Below the pieces are notes generated by a model that made no database searches, had not been told where the DNA came from, and worked only from the letters and a program-made list of their open reading frames with translations. This document shows, piece after piece, positions 4,175-27,740 of a stretch of 64,000 nucleotides of DNA; the first letter of the stretch is position 1; each line of letters starts with the position of its first letter. Location of the stretch: positions 165,197,406 through 165,261,405 of the forward strand of contig OY757011.1 in assembly GCA_963580285.1 (NCBI GenBank), written 5' to 3'. This DNA is from Lucinisca nassula. Its lineage: Eukaryota > Mollusca > Bivalvia > Lucinida > Lucinidae. The position numbers and the translations under genes were made by a program.

Positions 4175-4453
4175 CATTACGAAAACACACCTATTCAAAT
4201 ATGTTGTAAATTTACCGCCGAAACAACGAACATTTTAAGATGAAAAATTGTGATTTTTTTCTTATTTCTGCTCAAAATATAGATTGTGGGTACTAGTTAG
4301 AACCGCCTCATCGAGGCGGTTCTAACGAGTACCCACAATCTATACTTTAGAGCAGAAATAAGAAAAATAAGGTTTACCCCTGTAAACCCCAGTTTTGCTA
4401 CATAAAAGTGGGTTTCAAGGGGATCAAAATTATATAGGTGTGTTTTCGTGATG
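4175..4453 (-). mobile_element. Family P type A MITE
   Basis: Reverse orientation; ends CATTACGAAAACACACCTAT and ATAGGTGTGTTTTCGTGATG. The left arm of the central palindrome has CTAGTT where the right arm implies CTCGTT. Confidence 0.8.
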
Positions 4454-8459: not shown

Positions 8460-9240
8460 AGATTCGGTATACGACAGACTGCATGCATGGTAGATAACCC
8501 AATCACGCTAGACAACTTTGCTTTCCTCTCTAATTGCACGCCGGTGGGTCAGGCCTCAGATTCTATGACGGTTCCAGCGTAAAGGCTTACTGAGAATTAG
8601 AGAGTATCTAATTTTATGTAATGTTGGTTGTTGACTGATGCTCTGTCTCTGGTTGGGCCCTTTGGATTCTAACTGTTGGTCTCCTTTTGCTCCAGCATTT
8701 CAGTAGTTTCTTGCTGTCGAGTCCTCACCATGGTTTCATCTCTGTGGTTGTTTGATTTTTGTGTTCACGGAGATGTTGAAATGATGATTTGGGAAGCCTT
8801 CATGCGGACTGAACAAATTATTTGTCTAAATCGCGACGGAAATAAGGGCGCGGATTGTGACTACGTAAAATCAAATAAAGCCCCCCCCCCCACCCACATA
8901 CACCAACAGTGGAATTCGTCGCTGATCGTTCGAAGGCGGTTATTCTGTCGCGGTTTAATTTTGTTATGGTTTGTCTTTGAGTGTGTGAATCGCTTATATT
9001 ATTTTGTTTTGGATAGCTTATTGGCCATTTTGTGGGAAACTAACTTTCCTTTTGGGTTTCCGCTATTGATGTTTCCAATAGGGTCTGTTGTTTCGTGTTT
9101 GAGTTTCTCTCCCTCTGATGGGATTATGGGTTAATTGTATCGATTCCTGATCATTGCCTCCACTTCTAGTTTTATAAATATTCCCGTTAGCAGCATAATT
9201 TCTTTTCTTTTCTCTCCTTTAAGTTTCATTATCTGAGAAG
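8460..9240 (+). repeat. Interspersed ~0.7-kb repeat of unknown class (R0.7)
   Basis: Matches 27025-27740 over its length: GCATGCATGGTAG, ATTGCACGCCGGTGGGTCAG, CTCCAGCATTTCAGT, TTCATGCGGACTGAACAAAT, a poly-C run, CAAGGCGGTT and a GGGAAACTAAC...CCTTTTGG segment. Inverted or partial copies are at 9280-9520, 10340-10660, 17637-18060 and 34190-34330. No protein domain and no clear termini. Confidence 0.65.
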
Positions 9241-10021: not shown

Positions 10022-10355
10022 AGACGATATTCTCCCCGAATTACTTTCTTGTTGTTATTCAATCACGTTTCTTACCTCCATACAGCCATGTAAGAAGAGG
10101 ACCAAGATGGCCTTCATTCGCTCACCTGATTTCTAGCTGTCACATAGAAGTGAAAGCAATGATCAGGAATCAATATAATATATCTCACATCACGATATTC
10201 TCCCCGAATTACTTTCTTGTTGTTATTCAGTCATGTTTCTTACCTCCATACAACCATGTAACAAGAGGACCAAGATGGCCTTGAATCGCTCACCTGATCT
10301 CTAGCTGTCACATAGAAATGCAAGCAACGATCAGGAATAAATATAATATACCTCA
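10022..10355. repeat. Direct duplication of ~165 bp
   Basis: GATATTCTCCCCGAATTACT through AGGAATMAATATAATATA occurs twice in tandem (about 10026-10190 and 10193-10355) with about 10% differences. Confidence 0.75.
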
Positions 10356-10660
10356 CACTTCCAATCGAAGACACCAAAGAGAAAGAAACACAAACACAAA
10401 ACAACCCCACCGTATTAAATAAAAACGTTACAGGCAGAAAGCCAAAAGGACAGTTACTTTCCCACAAAATTACCAAACGGCTATCAAAAGTATAAAGATA
10501 TTAGCAATACATTCATGCAAGACGAAATATTTATTTCAATAACATACCACAACAGAAGGACCACCCATTGACGGTCAGTAAAACGTATTTTACTGGGATG
10601 GGGGCTTTAATCGATTTTACGTGTCCACAATCCTCGCCCTTCGTTCTGTCGTTGTTTAGA
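10340..10660 (-). repeat. R0.7 copy, inverted
   Basis: Contains GACACCAAAGAGAAAG, GGACAGTTACTTTCCCAC, ACCCATTGACGGTCAGT and GGGGGCTTTAATCGATTTTA, the inverse of the unit at 27.4-27.7 kb. Confidence 0.55.
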
Positions 10661-10665
10661 CAAAT

Positions 10666-11931: not shown

Positions 11932-12032
11932 TGTTACAACGCATAATGAAGTAATGTAGTAATTTTTTCATTTTGAAATTTTTACTTCATTATGCGTTGG
12001 CATAGTCGATGCGAAATGAAATAAAATGTAGT
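11932..12032 (+). repeat. Left TIR of the 5-kb insertion
   Basis: TGTTACAACGCATAATGAAG, then TAATGTAGTAATTTTTTCAT, an inverse CATTATGCGTTGG and a GTCGATGCGAAATGAAATAA segment. Confidence 0.7.
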
Positions 12033-12383
12033 TTTTATTAACCCAAATGAGTATCACAAATACATTTAAAATATCAATATCACCCCTTAGGTTACACTCT
12101 GCTTCTTCTGTACGGATTCCCCATTCTATTAAGAACTTTAATACTATGTTGCCTTCGGTATTGGTTAGACCCTTAAATTTGTCTTCTGTAACTTCAGTTA
12201 ATCTCAAAGGAGCAGGCAATACCAATGTTTTTGGGAGTAGTCTTCGTATAAGACTATCTCCTCTCAAATCGCCAATCCTTCGAAAATATACTAATCCGTG
12301 AAAAAGAAGTGGAATATATCCTAGTATTTCTAAGTGCAATGCCAAGAGGTGCAGATGTTGTTCGCATTTAAGCACTGCGTTGT
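12033..12383. other. Spacer between two direct TIR copies
   Basis: About 350 bp unique in this window. It is open on the minus strand (about 150 codons, 11968-12420, partly running into the flanking repeats). I recognise no domain and do not call it a gene. Confidence 0.35.
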
Positions 12384-12500
12384 TACAACGCATAATGTAG
12401 TAATGTAGTAATTTCTTCATTTTGAAATTTTTACTACATTATGCGTTGGCATAGTCGACGCGAAATGAAATAAAATGTCGTTTTTACTTCATTATGCGTC
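12384..12500 (+). repeat. Internal TIR copy, left type
   Basis: Nearly identical to 11932-12032; pairs as an inverted repeat with 13420-13559, suggesting a nested 1.2-kb member of the same family (12384-13559). Confidence 0.65.
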
Positions 12501-12591
12501 GATACTAAGAGGTTTGAGCAAAATGAAAGAATTATTACATTTTGCGGCGATGGGTGGCATACTTAATTTTACTTCATTATGCGTCAACAGT

Positions 12592-12785
12592 TTGTTTGTT
12601 TGATTTGAGGTTTAACGTTCCCGTTAAGACTATTTAGGTCATTTTGGAGACATTGCTTCAAATTTTATGGGACTTTTACCCGATATTGAGATGAAATGAC
12701 ATCTCAATCGCTGCCGTCCAATTAAAAGCAATAGGGTTTATATGCATGGATGGGCCGACTCGCAGCAGTTTTCCTGGACTCTGTG
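12592..12785 (+). repeat. Family V SINE-like repeat
   Basis: TTGAGGTTTAACGTTCCCGT, GATGAAATGACATCTCAATC and GGATGGGCCGACTCGCAGCA. Confidence 0.55.
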
Positions 12786-13162
12786 GTGTAGTAGTTATGC
12801 TATAGCTACTAGCCTGACAAACCGGGGTAGCTGGATCGATCCCCGGCTTTTTCCAGCCTTTCGGATTCAACCGAGATCCCGTCTCCGTATGAATGAGTCT
12901 TGAAACCAAGTTCGCTACTTCGTATGACCTAAGCTGTTGGTGGGACGGTAACTGAAACACACTCGCAATCCTTTTAACATGCAAAGATGGACAAACAACT
13001 GGGCTATGGACAGGTACAAGCCGATAGGATCCCCCGTCCCAACTTTTGTGTGCACTACACGATCATGTGTTGAGCCTTAAAACACAAATGAGGGAAAGAC
13101 ATCAGGCATGAGACCAAAATAGCGCAAGGCGTACGATTTTAATTCTACTGGCTTAATCAAAT
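12786..13162. other. No recognisable feature
   Basis: Interior of the composite insertion; no gene or known repeat recognised. Confidence 0.35.
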
Positions 13163-13376
13163 ACAATGAAATTCCACTATTAAGACCACCTAAAATTAAT
13201 ACAAATTTTGTTTTTAAAGCATATTTGGAAGGTTAAAGCTACATTTTCTTTGTGATTTTGACCTTCAGTGTGCTTTTGTGGAAGACCGTCTTTTGGACTG
13301 TTCAACTGTGGTCTTAAAGACCACTTTTGAACCGTCTCAAATGTGGTCTAAATTGTAGGAATTTAACTGTATTGCT
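13163..13376. mobile_element. Family U MITE
   Basis: Complete copy: AATGAAATTCCACTATTAAG at the left and GTAGGAATTTAACTGTATT at the right, with the GTGGTCTTAAAGACCACTTT palindrome. Confidence 0.65.
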
Positions 13377-13559
13377 TCCTAAGTCTTTTCGAAGACAGCT
13401 ATGTTCTACCATCATTACTTCATTATGCGTCGATATGGTGCATATCAACGCGAAATGAAATAATTTTTTTACTTCATTTCGCGTCGACTATGCCAACGCA
13501 TAATGTAGTAAAAAAAATCAAAATGAAGAAATTACTACATTACTACATTATGCGTTGTA
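13264..13559 (+). repeat. Direct repeat upstream of the Naiad element
   Basis: Right half of a family U MITE, then TTCCTAAGTCTTT...GATAGCTATGTTCT-like sequence and the right-type TIR. It matches 16631-16933 over ~300 bp with roughly 10% differences. The pair flanks the Naiad coding region, as pseudo-LTRs would, but could also be a segmental duplication. Confidence 0.7.
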
Positions 13560-14635
13560 TCACTGCGTCTACCGTTACTTCATCTGTAAACGGTAGACGC
13601 TTCTCTGTAGTTAACATGTCTGATTTGACATGACAGTCTACAGATTTAATTTATCTAATTACTTGACGTGCTGCAAACTGTAATATGCAGTACGTCGGTC
13701 AAACTAACCGCATGCTTAAAACTAGATTGAACGAGCATTATCGTAGAATGAGTAAGCCTAAGAAAACTGACACTTTCTTGTACCGTCACTTTCGACGTAC
13801 AGGTCATTCTGTAAATAACATTGTTATACAACCAATGGAAAAACTTTATTACGATGCAAATTCTACATCTAGATTCAAAATAATCAAAAGACATGAAGCT
13901 GAACTGAAATGGATTAAATTTTTACAGACCCCTTTTCCACTGGGATTTAATGACAACATTTATCATGAGGGTAATATTTCCAGAATGCCGGACTTTGATA
14001 TTTTCTCACTCCTGGAATGTCGAAAACGCAGAACTAGATCTCACGGCACCAGGAAAAATGGTAACTTTAAACGTAAATCACGTGCGTTTAAACGAAACAA
14101 TACTAGACTGAAGTGACTGTCAATTATATTATTAAATCATGGACGCCATTCTATGCTTTCATTTTTAAGTTCATTACCCGTTTCTGTTTTACGTCTTCTG
14201 GACACCGAGGCGAATAAATTCTACGATAGTTCTCATCAGTTATATGATGCGGCTCTCTTAACTAGAGGCTATACTCAGCATACTCTCCGTCCTTACATTG
14301 ATTTTGAAATTAATCATAAACGCCATTTCTTCAAAATATCCTTCATAAATGAGGGTATGGATTTTATAGATTTGCCCAGTATCTTCCGTGAGTGATCGGT
14401 GCTTTCTTCCATTCCTGCTTATTTTCAAAATACTGAAACACCTATAATTTGCTATAAATATAACAAACCTGTTAGATCTATCATTTTTAATTTCAATAAA
14501 CTTGTTTCAGATCTTGATATTGATACTAATACTCCTGATTCATGTGATTGTAAAATCTCAAAGTATTGCTATCCTGTTGCTGGTCATGTAATTACTGGCA
14601 ATTTGAAAATTATTCCTGATTCTAGGATAAGGAAT
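13550..14635 (+). CDS. GIY-YIG endonuclease and CxC linker (Naiad N-terminal half), with in-frame TGAs
   Basis: The frame opens at ATG 13550 (inside a repeat, so the true start is uncertain). It reads STVTSSVNGRRFSVVNMS, T-TGA-QS, then LIYLIT-TGA as the GIY half and NMQYVGQT as the YIG half. The catalytic Arg is in KTRLNEHY. Two downstream His (RHFRRTGHS) fit the zinc-binding CCHH of Penelope endonucleases. ELKWI and PLGFNDN supply the Glu and Asn positions. A basic stretch (KRRTRSHGTRKNGNFKRK) leads into the linker with SCDC at about 14540-14551. TGA codons are at 13631, 13664, 14114 and 14393, all in one frame. The frame slips at about 14630, probably with loss of a few conserved codons. 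It would nick DNA for target-primed reverse transcription. As read by the standard code it is a pseudogene. Confidence 0.8.
13565..13600 (+). other. Hairpin overlapping the Naiad 5' coding region
   Basis: GCGTCTACCGTT and AACGGTAGACGC form a perfect 12-bp stem around a 12-base loop, 30 bases upstream of the first TGA. Confidence 0.6.
13631..13666 (+). other. Two in-frame TGA codons in the endonuclease (13631-13633, 13664-13666)
   Basis: They read LT-TGA-QS and LIT-TGA-R. By family pattern both sites are expected to be Cys; the second is the first ligand of the C-x(2-5)-C pair beside the GIY strand. Candidate selenocysteines. Confidence 0.55.
14114..14395 (+). other. Two in-frame TGA codons in the linker (14114-14116, 14393-14395)
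   Basis: They read TRLK-TGA-LS and FRE-TGA-SVLSS, with the same frame open and conserved on both sides. I am unsure that relatives have Cys here; a CGA to TGA mutation is an alternative for the second. Confidence 0.45.
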
Positions 14636-16428
14636 ATCGGTTTCCTTCTAAAATTGATTTCAGTAAATGTAGAGATGAAATCGCTGCTTCCTTGAATGAA
14701 TTCGGTAATCGATGGTGTAAACGAGAGTATGTTGAGCATAAAGCCCTTAAGGACTGGAAACTTAGCATTTTAAAACTAGTGAATAAACGCATTTCTTTCT
14801 ATTCTCAAAATACTAACTTATTACCTCCTAAGCCCAAGACGTCTTTACGTCATCTTAAACTAGGTATTCAAGAATTTCATAAGAAGTTTGTTTTGGCCCC
14901 TGCAGACAAGGCCGCTAACAACGTCGTCGTTCTGTGACGGCTCCACTATGTTAACACGCTTAAGCAGGAGCTTGGTGGTACTAAGGCCTATGAACTTCAG
15001 CCTTTAGCTGAAGAGAGAGCTATAGTAGATAAACATGTTTGTCTTTCAGCCACCAAGTTTGCTGTGTGTGTTAACGAAGGCCAAGACAAGCTTCCGACGC
15101 TATACTGGTTACCAAAACTTCATAAAAGACCTTACAAAGCACGGTTTATGGCAAATTCTAGCTCTTGCACTACCACTGAACTTTCTAAATTATTAACTTC
15201 CTGTCTTACTGCTATTAAAACGCATGTAATTAAATATTGTGATAAAGTCTTTGAAAGATCAGGAAGGAATCTGTTTTGGTCTGTAATAAATTCGAATGAG
15301 GTTTTAAATAAATTGAAATCCAGACATTTTCGTGCTTCTAGTCTGTCTACTTACGATTTTTCCACTCTTTACACTACACTTCCTCATAATCTTATAAAAG
15401 AAAAGCTTAATGGTTTAATTGAATGGGCTTTTCACAGAGAAGATTCTCTCTATCTTGCATGTAATGTCAGAAATGCATTTTTCACTTCTAAAGAGCGTAA
15501 GAATTATACACTTTGGTCATGTCAGAAAGTGTGTGATGCCCTCACCTTTCTACTTGACAATATTTGTATTAGATTCGGTACTAAGTTATTTAGACAAATG
15601 GTGGGTATTCCGATGGGTACTAATTGCGCACCACTTGTGGCGGATCTGTTCTTGTATTGTTATGAAAGAGACTTCATTTTGTCGCTTTCCATTGATAACC
15701 AATCTGAAATTATTGAAGCTTTTAGTTCCACTTCTAGATATTTAGATGATTTATTAAATATTGATAATACCTATTTTGATGGTTTGATCAGTCAGATTTA
15801 CCCCCAAGAACTTCAGTTAAATAAAGCAAATTCTTCTGATACCGAGGCCCCGTTTTTGGATTTACATCTATCTATTGTAGATGGATTTGTTTCGTGCAAA
15901 ATTTATGATAAACGCGATGACTTTGATTTTGAGATTGTAAATTTTCCTTTTTTGGATGGTGATGTTCCTCGTGCGCCATCCTATGGCGTTTATATTTCGC
16001 AATTAATTCGATTTGCTAGAGTGTGTAGTCATGTAACTGACTTCAACACTCGTAATAAATTATTAACGGCTAAACTCTTTAATCAGGGTTATCGGTACCA
16101 TAAACTACGCAAAGCCTTTTCAAAATTTTATATACGCCATTCTGATTTAATTTCAAAATTCAATATTGGACTTAAATCTCTTCTGCAACAAGATCTATCG
16201 GAACCCGAATTTTATGGTGACTTAGTATATAAATTCAGAAAAATATATAACCGCAATGACTTCAGCACCCAATTTCGTAAAATCATTCTTCGATATTCTT
16301 CAAGCCCCGATGGGCGGGGGCGAATATGCGTCGACAGTATGAGGTCGGTTCTAAATGAAAAAAAAATGCACATATATTTTGCTTTAAGAGATGGCACACT
16401 TTTTCAAACATCACAGAAACAAAAGTAA
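14635..16428 (+). CDS. Naiad reverse transcriptase
   Basis: A frame from Y-R-F-P-S (14635) runs through one TGA (14935) to TAA 16426-16428. Motifs in order: YWLPKLHKRPYKARF (15106-15150), catalytic motif A TYDFSTLY with Asp at 15355-15357, GIPMGTNCAPLVADLF (motif B), SRYLDDLL with the paired catalytic Asp at 15745-15750, then LQLNKANSSDTEAPFLDL and KIYDKRDD. The region between motifs 2 and 3 has room for the insertion-in-fingers domain reported for Naiads. All three catalytic Asp are present. The last ~30 residues look unlike the family and may come from a 3' rearrangement. The TGA at 14935 follows VVVL and precedes R, where relatives usually have Cys. Confidence 0.85.
14935..14937 (+). other. 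In-frame TGA before the RT fingers
   Basis: VVVL-TGA-RLHYVNTLKQEL; Cys is the usual residue in Penelope-like elements after the valine run (from memory of the family). Candidate selenocysteine. Confidence 0.55.
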
Positions 16429-16584
16429 CCCAAATATTTAAGGCTAAAACATGCATGTGGAGACTTTTATAAGTAGAATGATGGTGCATTATCAACAGAA
16501 AAGGAGCGAGGAAGGTCGAAAACATGTGGTGAGAAGTTTATATAAAAGTATGCAGTTCAAGAAGCCAGTCGTTATGACGTAGGC
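16429..16584 (+). other. Putative 3' UTR of the Naiad element
   Basis: Sequence between the TAA stop and the hairpin; no convincing SECIS or polyadenylation signal seen. Confidence 0.4.
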
Positions 16585-16625
16585 CAAGAGCTCATGTGAT
16601 GAGCTTTTGCGCACATGAGCTCTTG
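16585..16625 (+). other. Perfect 14-bp hairpin in the Naiad 3' region
   Basis: CAAGAGCTCATGTG pairs with CACATGAGCTCTTG across a 13-base loop. ATGAC lies 8 bases upstream and CGAC directly downstream, loosely like a SECIS quartet, but spacing and apical AA are wrong. Function unknown. Confidence 0.6.
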
Positions 16626-16630
16626 CGACA

Positions 16631-16933
16631 TTCAGTGTGCTCTTGTGGAAGACCATCTTTGGGACTGTTCAAATGTGGTCTTAAAGACAACTTTTGAACT
16701 GTCTAAAATGTGGTCTTTATATTGGAATTTACCTGTATTACTTCCTAAGTCTTTGGTCTCCTTTCGGAGATAGCTATGTTCTTCCATCTTTACTTCATTT
16801 TGCGTCGATATGGTGCATATCAACGCGAAATGAATTCTTTTTTTACTTCATTCCGCGTCGACTACGCCAACGCATAATGAAATAAAAAAAATCAAAATGA
16901 AGAAATTACTACATTACTTCATTATGCGTTGTA
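16631..16933 (+). repeat. Direct repeat downstream of the Naiad element
   Basis: Partner of 13264-13559. It starts abruptly inside a family U MITE (TTCAGTGTGCTCTTGTGG) and includes the right TIR of the 5-kb insertion (about 16790-16936). Confidence 0.7.
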
Positions 16934-16936
16934 ACA

Positions 16937-17636
16937 AGGGTCACCTAAGCAACTTTCGCATGACGTGGGAATGAAATTGGCCCGGGGGAGATATCATTCA
17001 AAGATTTTTTCTGTCTTAAGCTCTAAAGCCGAATGATTTTAGCCGTTTTGGTAGGATGCCACCTAGGCAAAATCCCTGCAAGTTTGAATCAAATTGGTCG
17101 TATGGTTTAGGATGAGTTGGCATCTATAGCAAACTGTTGACATTTTTCATTTTTTTTACTTCCGGCAGCCATTTTGCTCATCGGAGCAGAACCGATTTAG
17201 CTATTTTGGTAGAGGGTCAACTAAGCATTTAGATGAAGTTTCAACAATATTGGCCCAAAGGGTATAGGCGGAGTTGCTATTTATTCTTTTTCTATTTTTC
17301 AGCTCTGGTAGCCATTTTGTCCATTGTATCGAAACCACTTTGGCTGTTTGAACAGAGGGTCGCCTAAGCAACATTCCAATGATGGTTCATTGAAATTAGC
17401 AAAGGGTGGTCTTGATGTTTAAAGAATTTTCTATTTTTAGCTCTGACGGCCATCCTGTTCATCGGGACTGAATCATTTATGCTATTTTGGTAGAGAGTCA
17501 TCTATGCAACATTCCTGTTAAGTTTGAATGAAATTGACCCAAGGGTTTAGGAGGAGTTGGCATTTAAATCAGAGTTTTGAAGTTTTTTTTTCTAGTTTTA
17601 AGTTCCGGTGGTCATTTTGATCATCGGAGCTAAAAT
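16937..17636. repeat. Array H, third block
   Basis: About four ~150-bp units; begins with the second AGGGTC, then CACCTAAGCAAC. Confidence 0.75.
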
Positions 17637-18060
17637 AGAAGTGAAGGCAATGATCAGGTATCGATACAATTAACCCACACCTTCCATCAGCGACACCAAA
17701 GGGAAGAAACACAAACATAAAATAACTAGACCCTAATGGAATCATCAATAACGGAAAACCAAAAGGACAGTTACTTTCCCACAAATGGCCTATTGGCTAT
17801 CCAAAACAAAAAGAAACAAGCGATACACACACTCAAAGACAAACCATAACAAAAATAAACCGCGACAGAAGAACCGCCTTGGAACGGTCAGTGAAAAGAA
17901 TTTCACTGGAGGGCTTTAATCGATTTTAAGCGGCCGAATCCTCGCCCTCATTTAGATAAATTATTTGTTCAGTCCGCATGAAGGCTTCCTAACTCATCAG
18001 TGCAACATCACCGAGAACACAAGAATCAAACAACCACATCCGCCCGGATGAACGAGATCG
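17637..18060 (-). repeat. R0.7 copy, inverted
   Basis: GAAGTGAAGGCAATGATCAG, GGACAGTTACTTTCCCAC, AACCGCCTTGGAACGGTCAG and AACTCATCAGTGCAACATC. Inserted in array H at GGAGCTAAAA, which recurs near 18077. Confidence 0.6.
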
Positions 18061-27024: not shown

Positions 27025-27740
27025 TAATAACTTAGACTGCATGCATGGTAGTTAACCCAATCACGGTTGGCAACTTTGCTTCCCTCTTTAATTGCACGCC
27101 GGTGGGTCAGGCCTCAGATTCTATGACGGCTCCAACGTAAAGGCTTATTGAGAATTAGAGAGATCTAATTCAAGGTAATGTTGGTTGGTGCCTGATGCTC
27201 TGTCTCTGGTCGGACCCATCGGAGTCTAACTGTTGGTTTTCTTTTGCTCCAGCATTTCAGTGGTTTCTTGCTGTGTAGTCCCCACCGTTGTCTCACCTCT
27301 GTGGTTCTTTGATTTTTTGTGTTCACGGAGATGTTGCACTGATGAGTTAGGAGGCCTTCATGCGGACTGAACAAATTATTTGTCTAAATCGCGACGGAAG
27401 TAAGGGCGAGGATAGTGGCCACGTAAAATCGATTTAAGCCCCCCCCCCCCCCCCCCCCCCCCGGTGGAAACCTTTCCACTGACCATTCCAAGGCGGTTCT
27501 TCTGTGGCGGTTTATTTATGGTGTTGTTTTTTACTTACTGTGTGTATCACTTGTGTCTTTTTATTTTGGATGGTCATATGGCCATTTTGTGGGAAAGTAA
27601 CTGTCCTTATGGCCTTCCTTTGTTTAGGTTTCCATTATGGTCTGGTCGCTTAATGTTTGTGTTTCTTTCCCTTTGGTGTCTTTGATGGGTGGAGTAAGTT
27701 AATTGTATCGGTTCCTGACCTTTGTTTTACTTCTACTTTC
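27025..27740 (+). repeat. R0.7 interspersed repeat, best copy
   Basis: Full-length match to 8460-9240. The internal poly-C run is 24 C here (27439-27462) against 10 in the other copy. Confidence 0.7.

Follow-up and report, generated by a model that had tools for sequence, protein, structure and literature searches.

The window (the whole 64,000-nucleotide stretch of Lucinisca nassula DNA analysed here) contains an incomplete copy of a Naiad-type retroelement, which is split into two segments by a DNA transposon with terminal inverted repeats (TIRs) and is itself enclosed in another one (Table 1). The preliminary description had placed the element at 13550..16428. Most of this span is indeed Naiad sequence (13561-16296), but a further 5' segment is found at 12035-12380, and the positions 16297-16428 do not belong to the element, since the last base of the copy is 16296, which leaves it about 46 codons short of the stop codon of its sister copies. 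The inserted transposon is flanked by a short target duplication of about 6-8 bp, with the Naiad sequence resuming at 13561 by repeating positions 1501-1508 of L002, the reference copy of the family. The outer transposon (11932-16936) and the inserted one (12381-13562) represent the same kind of TIR element. As the Naiad copy lies inside the outer transposon without its own 3' end, it may have been captured by a DNA transposon.

Table 1 Coordinates of the Naiad copy, its functional sites and the neighbouring elements in the window
Feature	Position	Strand	Evidence
Outer TIR DNA transposon enclosing the Naiad copy, left end	11932..12034		Inverted repeat arms 11932-11983 / 16885-16936
Naiad 5' segment (N-terminal part of the frame)	12035..12380	+	97.1% identity to L002 1163-1508
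TIR DNA transposon inside the Naiad copy	12381..13562		Inverted repeat arms 12381-12432 / 13511-13562
Naiad main segment (GIY-YIG endonuclease, CxC linker, reverse transcriptase), 3'-truncated	13561..16296	+	97.6% identity to L002 1501-4258
Site 1, predicted Sec	13631..13633	+	TGA in 17/17 covering loci; endonuclease Cys column
GIY-YIG core (LIYLIT ... QYVGQT)	13646..13705	+	Alignment with relatives; P0123 and P0134 pass PF01541
Site 2, predicted Sec	13664..13666	+	TGA in 17/17 covering loci; endonuclease Cys column
Site 3, predicted Sec	14114..14116	+	TGA in 24/24 covering loci; variable linker column
TGA private to the window copy (decay)	14393..14395	+	AGA in 29/30 loci
CxC motif (CDC) of the linker	14543..14551	+	Sequence; CxC columns nearly invariant in alignment A3
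Private 22-bp deletion shifting the frame	14630..14640 (junction near 14636)	+	Comparison with sister copies
Site 4, predicted Sec	14935..14937	+	TGA in 30/30 covering loci; Cys column upstream of the RT core
RT active-site motif RYLDD	15736..15750	+	Invariant in alignment A1
Outer TIR DNA transposon, right part	16297..16936		Inverted repeats and L002 comparison
Separate Naiad 3' end of the same kind	27034..27739	+	91% identity to L002 4293-4966
Older Naiad 3' end	8468..9172	+	79% identity to L002 4285-4966
Further Naiad 3'-end pieces	17631-18038 and 10322-10665	-	L002 comparison

The search of the 2.93-Gb host genome gave 42 matches, and 30 loci including the window copy were cut out with one match per locus. 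The frame had been described as interrupted by five TGA codons and one frameshift, with no TAA or TAG, and all of this proved to be real: reading of the frame over 13562-14623 and 14635-16294 finds TGA at 13631, 13664, 14114 and 14393 in one frame and at 14935 in the next one, with zero TAA and zero TAG, while TAA, TAG and TGA all occur in the other two forward frames of the copy, which contain dozens of stops. The deletion responsible for the shift is possessed by the window copy alone, although each of the 30 loci covers the spot. One additional TGA is located at 12299 in the 5' segment, where L002 has TGG and none of the loci covering that codon has TGA. Split by a transposon, frameshifted and truncated upstream of the SECIS-like hairpin described below, which it therefore lacks, the window copy is dead and cannot make the protein.

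The copies of the family share a fixed 3' end, have variable 5' starts and form head-to-tail junctions, with places about 4.15 kb apart; such ragged 5' ends, a fixed 3' end and head-to-tail arrays are consistent with a Penelope-like element that undergoes 3'-primed reverse transcription. The GIY-YIG domain is N-terminal to the reverse transcriptase (RT) in L002 and in the window copy, as it is in the relatives P0123 and P0134, where PF01541 is followed by RVT_1. Pfam did not detect GIY-YIG in L002 and P0001 themselves, and the RVT_1 match of P0002 (12.7 bits) is below the cut-off of 29.6. The frame aligns with endonuclease-bearing relatives. The structure model of the L002 endonuclease is nearest to the catalytic domain of I-TevI (1ln0, probability 1.00, E 0.016), with no structure reaching 0.001.

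Four of the five TGAs of the main segment, corresponding to L002 positions 1571, 1604, 2054 and 2897, are present in every covering locus (Table 1), with zero base changes in the twelve bases of these codons across the 30 loci. Leaving the terminal stop aside, the 30 loci contain 17 other stops, each found in a single locus, namely 11 TAA, 2 TAG and 4 TGA, one of the latter being 14393 of the window; one of the TAAs (in L014) lies no more than 10 bases from the end of its match. Out of the ten loci covering the whole frame, six have no extra stop or indel. Ten further loci (L033-L042) show TGA in 3/3, 3/3, 3/3 and 12/12 matching stretches at sites 1 to 4, respectively, and a few stops of their own. 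The full frames of L043, L044 and L045 carry TGA at the same four sites, and in L044 the open frame contains an extra TGA close to its 5' end, ahead of the L002 frame start. Since the copies share recent ancestry, fixation alone is a weak argument. Variants found in at least two loci include 17 silent and 19 replacement changes, a ratio of 1.1 versus 2.9 expected, and singleton variants include 107 silent and 214 replacement changes (ratio 2.0).

Protein searches of the host genome score the best candidates only and are thus biased toward intact copies, and with this reservation all 54 scored rows of the P0084 search contain two TGAs in the aligned part (sites 3 and 4), and 23 rows of the P0134 search at 39% identity were taken as the family of the window, 20 of them with four TGAs and three with three. 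There was no TAA or TAG in these 23 rows. The three-TGA copies are 98.7-99.3% identical to L002 and carry TGT at site 1 (L048), TGT at site 2 (L047) and TGG at site 4 (L046), so each of them is a natural loss of a single UGA site. The matches of the P0084 search were also considered as a second Sec family, which was rejected because the three loci fetched belong to the family of the window, and a second stretch of L009, in which L and P occupy sites 1 and 2, was discarded after being traced to a tandem junction.

The relatives comprise 142 database proteins (P0003-P0144, the best 120 per list, with many near-duplicates). Among the matches listed, site 1 is occupied by C in 18 and W in one of the 19 covering proteins, site 2 by C in 19 of 19, and site 4 by C in 48, W in 10 and R in one of 59, with P0035 poorly aligned nearby. 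Site 3 is variable among the matches listed (L in 10, D in two, C, S, N, K and G in one each, and one gap). Cys or TGA in relatives had been named as a check for the TGA columns, and three of the four fixed sites prove to be Cys columns, the exception being 14114. In the endonuclease alignment A3 site 1 is nearly invariant and site 2 invariant, and the C-terminal endonucleases of P0140, P0141, P0143 and P0144 have Cys at both sites too. Conservation of these columns suggests that Sec may have a function at the cysteines of the endonuclease, possibly of a metal-site type. Twenty-two of the best 120 relatives start at residue 106, two past the site-4 column, as is expected if an ORF caller met a stop there.

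A dead retroelement might simply have acquired its TGAs as premature stops by random decay, and the window copy, being truncated, frameshifted and interrupted, with its private 14393 and with 12299 replaced by TGG in L002, has the appearance of one. What decay looks like in this genome can be seen from the Cys-bearing Naiads retrieved in the same P0134 search. The other 27 rows of that search show 51-63% identity, and four of them are second segments of listed elements, leaving 23 rows which contain 15 TGA, 16 TAG and 30 TAA, with four rows free of any stop. The family of the window differs in having four TGAs fixed in the covering loci, and its other stops are singletons, mostly TAA. We therefore consider decay a very improbable source of the TGAs as a whole: it is contradicted for the four fixed sites, upheld for 14393 and likely for 12299. 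The TGA at 14393, which is followed by T, is ordinary decay and no fifth Sec, and the one at 12299 is likely decay as well. The multi-Sec reading initially proposed with five sites is thus supported for 13631, 13664, 14114 and 14935 and falls for 14393, where the 29 other loci have AGA. The comparison of sister copies had been set beforehand as a possible refutation and came out in favour for four of the five sites; the proposal of a Sec-using lineage with a frameshift gained later is likewise borne out, as the four TGAs are fixed in the family and the deletion is private.

Two Cys-bearing elements related to P0134 were fetched, and both share the order of GIY-YIG and RT with the family of the window. 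L049 possesses Cys at site 4 and L050 at sites 1, 2 and 4. The latter was examined as a five-TGA Sec copy and rejected, its TGAs lying elsewhere and being taken as decay. L049 (G000:C5:124072200-124077000) contains an 890-codon frame without TAA or TAG, and a search of it at E up to 10, which included about 1 kb of sequence following the frame, gave no SECIS match. No protein relatives were confirmed in viral contigs. Two Naiad-like fragments (L031 and L032) occur in a Bathymodiolus symbiont MAG, presumably as host DNA contamination, and L031 has Cys in the site-4 column.

A SECIS-like hairpin is located at the end of the ORF. RF00031 matches L002 at 4374-4453 with 25.5 bits (E 0.007 for all 4227 families in 351 bases), and no other Rfam match was found in those 351 bases at E up to 5. 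The match was obtained in all six loci tested (25.1-26.5 bits, E 0.32-0.77 over 31 kb, where a microsatellite mir-297 match ranks higher), twice in L043 (28.2 bits, E 0.045) and in L044 (24.1 bits). All these scores (24-28 bits) are under the Rfam gathering score of 35, with whole-locus E values of 0.05-0.8. The hairpin includes the AUGA, apical AAA and UGA features, and the ORF stop codon TAA at L002 4397 supplies the apical As; L003 has TGA as its stop and retains the apical As. A SECIS search had been suggested for the family, and the AUGA, AA and UGA elements are kept in 27 of the 30 loci, with L001 and L014 ending before the hairpin and L016 breaking inside it. Residues of the C-terminal tail are present in 58 of the 65 relatives reaching the end, and in 55 of these 58 they read M followed by M, T or I, so that AUGA stays possible. 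Within the window, the separate 3' end at 27034-27739 yields an RF00031 match at 27113-27204 (24.1 bits, E 0.017) with a longer apical loop, and none was found in 8468-9172. Compensatory changes in the stem were sought in a few diverged copies and gave a weak case, on which no claim is based.

The base following the UGA is C at all four sites, with a chance of about 0.001 calculated from the frame's own codons. UGA-C is the leakiest readthrough context, and the four codons might accordingly be read by near-cognate tRNAs in a programmed, SECIS-independent manner, the more so as 10 of 59 relatives have W at site 4, as does the copy L046. Against this stand the hairpin at the ORF end and the Cys found in 37 of the 38 residues of relatives at sites 1 and 2, and four leaky readthroughs in series would leave very little full-length protein, which makes such readthrough an improbable explanation. 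The UGAs might also be removed before translation by splicing or by A-to-I editing to UGG, with Trp in the site-4 column of some relatives as indirect support. Against this, the alignment of the frame to coding relatives shows gaps of a few residues at most around sites 1 and 2, at site 4 it is ungapped in the contexts compared, and editing to Trp is at odds with the Cys columns. We regard removal before translation as having almost no probability.

The preferred reading is that the copy in the window is dead and belongs to a young Naiad-type Penelope-like retroelement present in many copies, the functional kin of which very probably decode four UGAs as Sec by means of a SECIS. The host appears to be equipped for this, as seven exon stretches of SepSecS are found in order on one host contig (C1), and among the named matches the assembled SepSecS is closest to those of Mactra, Mya, Dreissena, Sinanodonta, Aplysia and Physella at 66-69%, which indicates a mollusc and probably a bivalve. 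Judging from sequence, the product of a functional member would be a single protein of about 1,000-1,100 residues with the N-terminal GIY-YIG endonuclease, the CxC linker and the reverse transcriptase. The putative SECIS would straddle the ORF end, its 5' arm coding for the last residues, UAA giving the apical As and the 3' arm lying in the 3' UTR, and the host machinery would insert Sec at the two endonuclease cysteines, at one linker position and at one cysteine ahead of the RT core. This protein would subsequently nick DNA and copy the element RNA from its 3' end. Translation of the UGAs as Sec, the function of the hairpin and the transposition mechanism are in this sense predictions from the sequence. 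A speculative and rather unlikely extension is that termination and recoding interfere with each other, a ribosome completing the protein melting the stop-spanning SECIS and transiently halting Sec insertion upstream. Such an overlap would account for the strongly conserved C-terminal tail of the relatives, and if true it would make the endonuclease-RT of the retroelement self-limiting and selenium-gated.

A mobile element's own nuclease and polymerase thus appear to rely on the host Sec system at four positions, and this in dozens of copies. The presence in one genome of four-UGA copies, of variants with a single UGA changed to Cys or Trp and of Cys Naiads makes the question of why Sec is kept directly testable. 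Caution is also needed with ORF callers, which can end such proteins prematurely at a UGA.

Craig, Yushenova, Rodriguez and Arkhipova reportedly described Naiad Penelope-like elements in 2021, among them multi-Sec Naiads from clams and spiders. Among the papers listed in our literature search, none was seen to describe selenocysteine in Naiads. The multi-Sec clam and spider Naiads, as reported, are alike in the N-terminal GIY-YIG, the CxC linker, the RT, the head-to-tail copies and several in-frame UGAs, so the family described here adds to a known phenomenon, and no tested feature sets it apart from the clam Naiads reported. What may be new in comparison with the latter is that the SECIS spans the stop codon and that copies of one genome naturally vary in having UGA or a Cys codon. 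Selenoprotein P is a plasma protein of the host with no known kinship to nucleases or polymerases, and it shares with the family of the window the presence of several UGAs in one mRNA. Its several Sec residues are stated in PMC8230778. The SECIS position has a parallel in GPX4 of fowlpox virus, which according to a review has its SECIS inside the ORF (PMC6769590, citing Mix et al. 2007); the same review states that genes with an in-frame SECIS could be expressed in cell lines of mammals. On this account the fowlpox SECIS and the putative one described here both overlap coding sequence, but the fowlpox protein is a poxvirus peroxidase, whereas the family described here is a retroelement with four UGAs and its stop codon in the apical loop.
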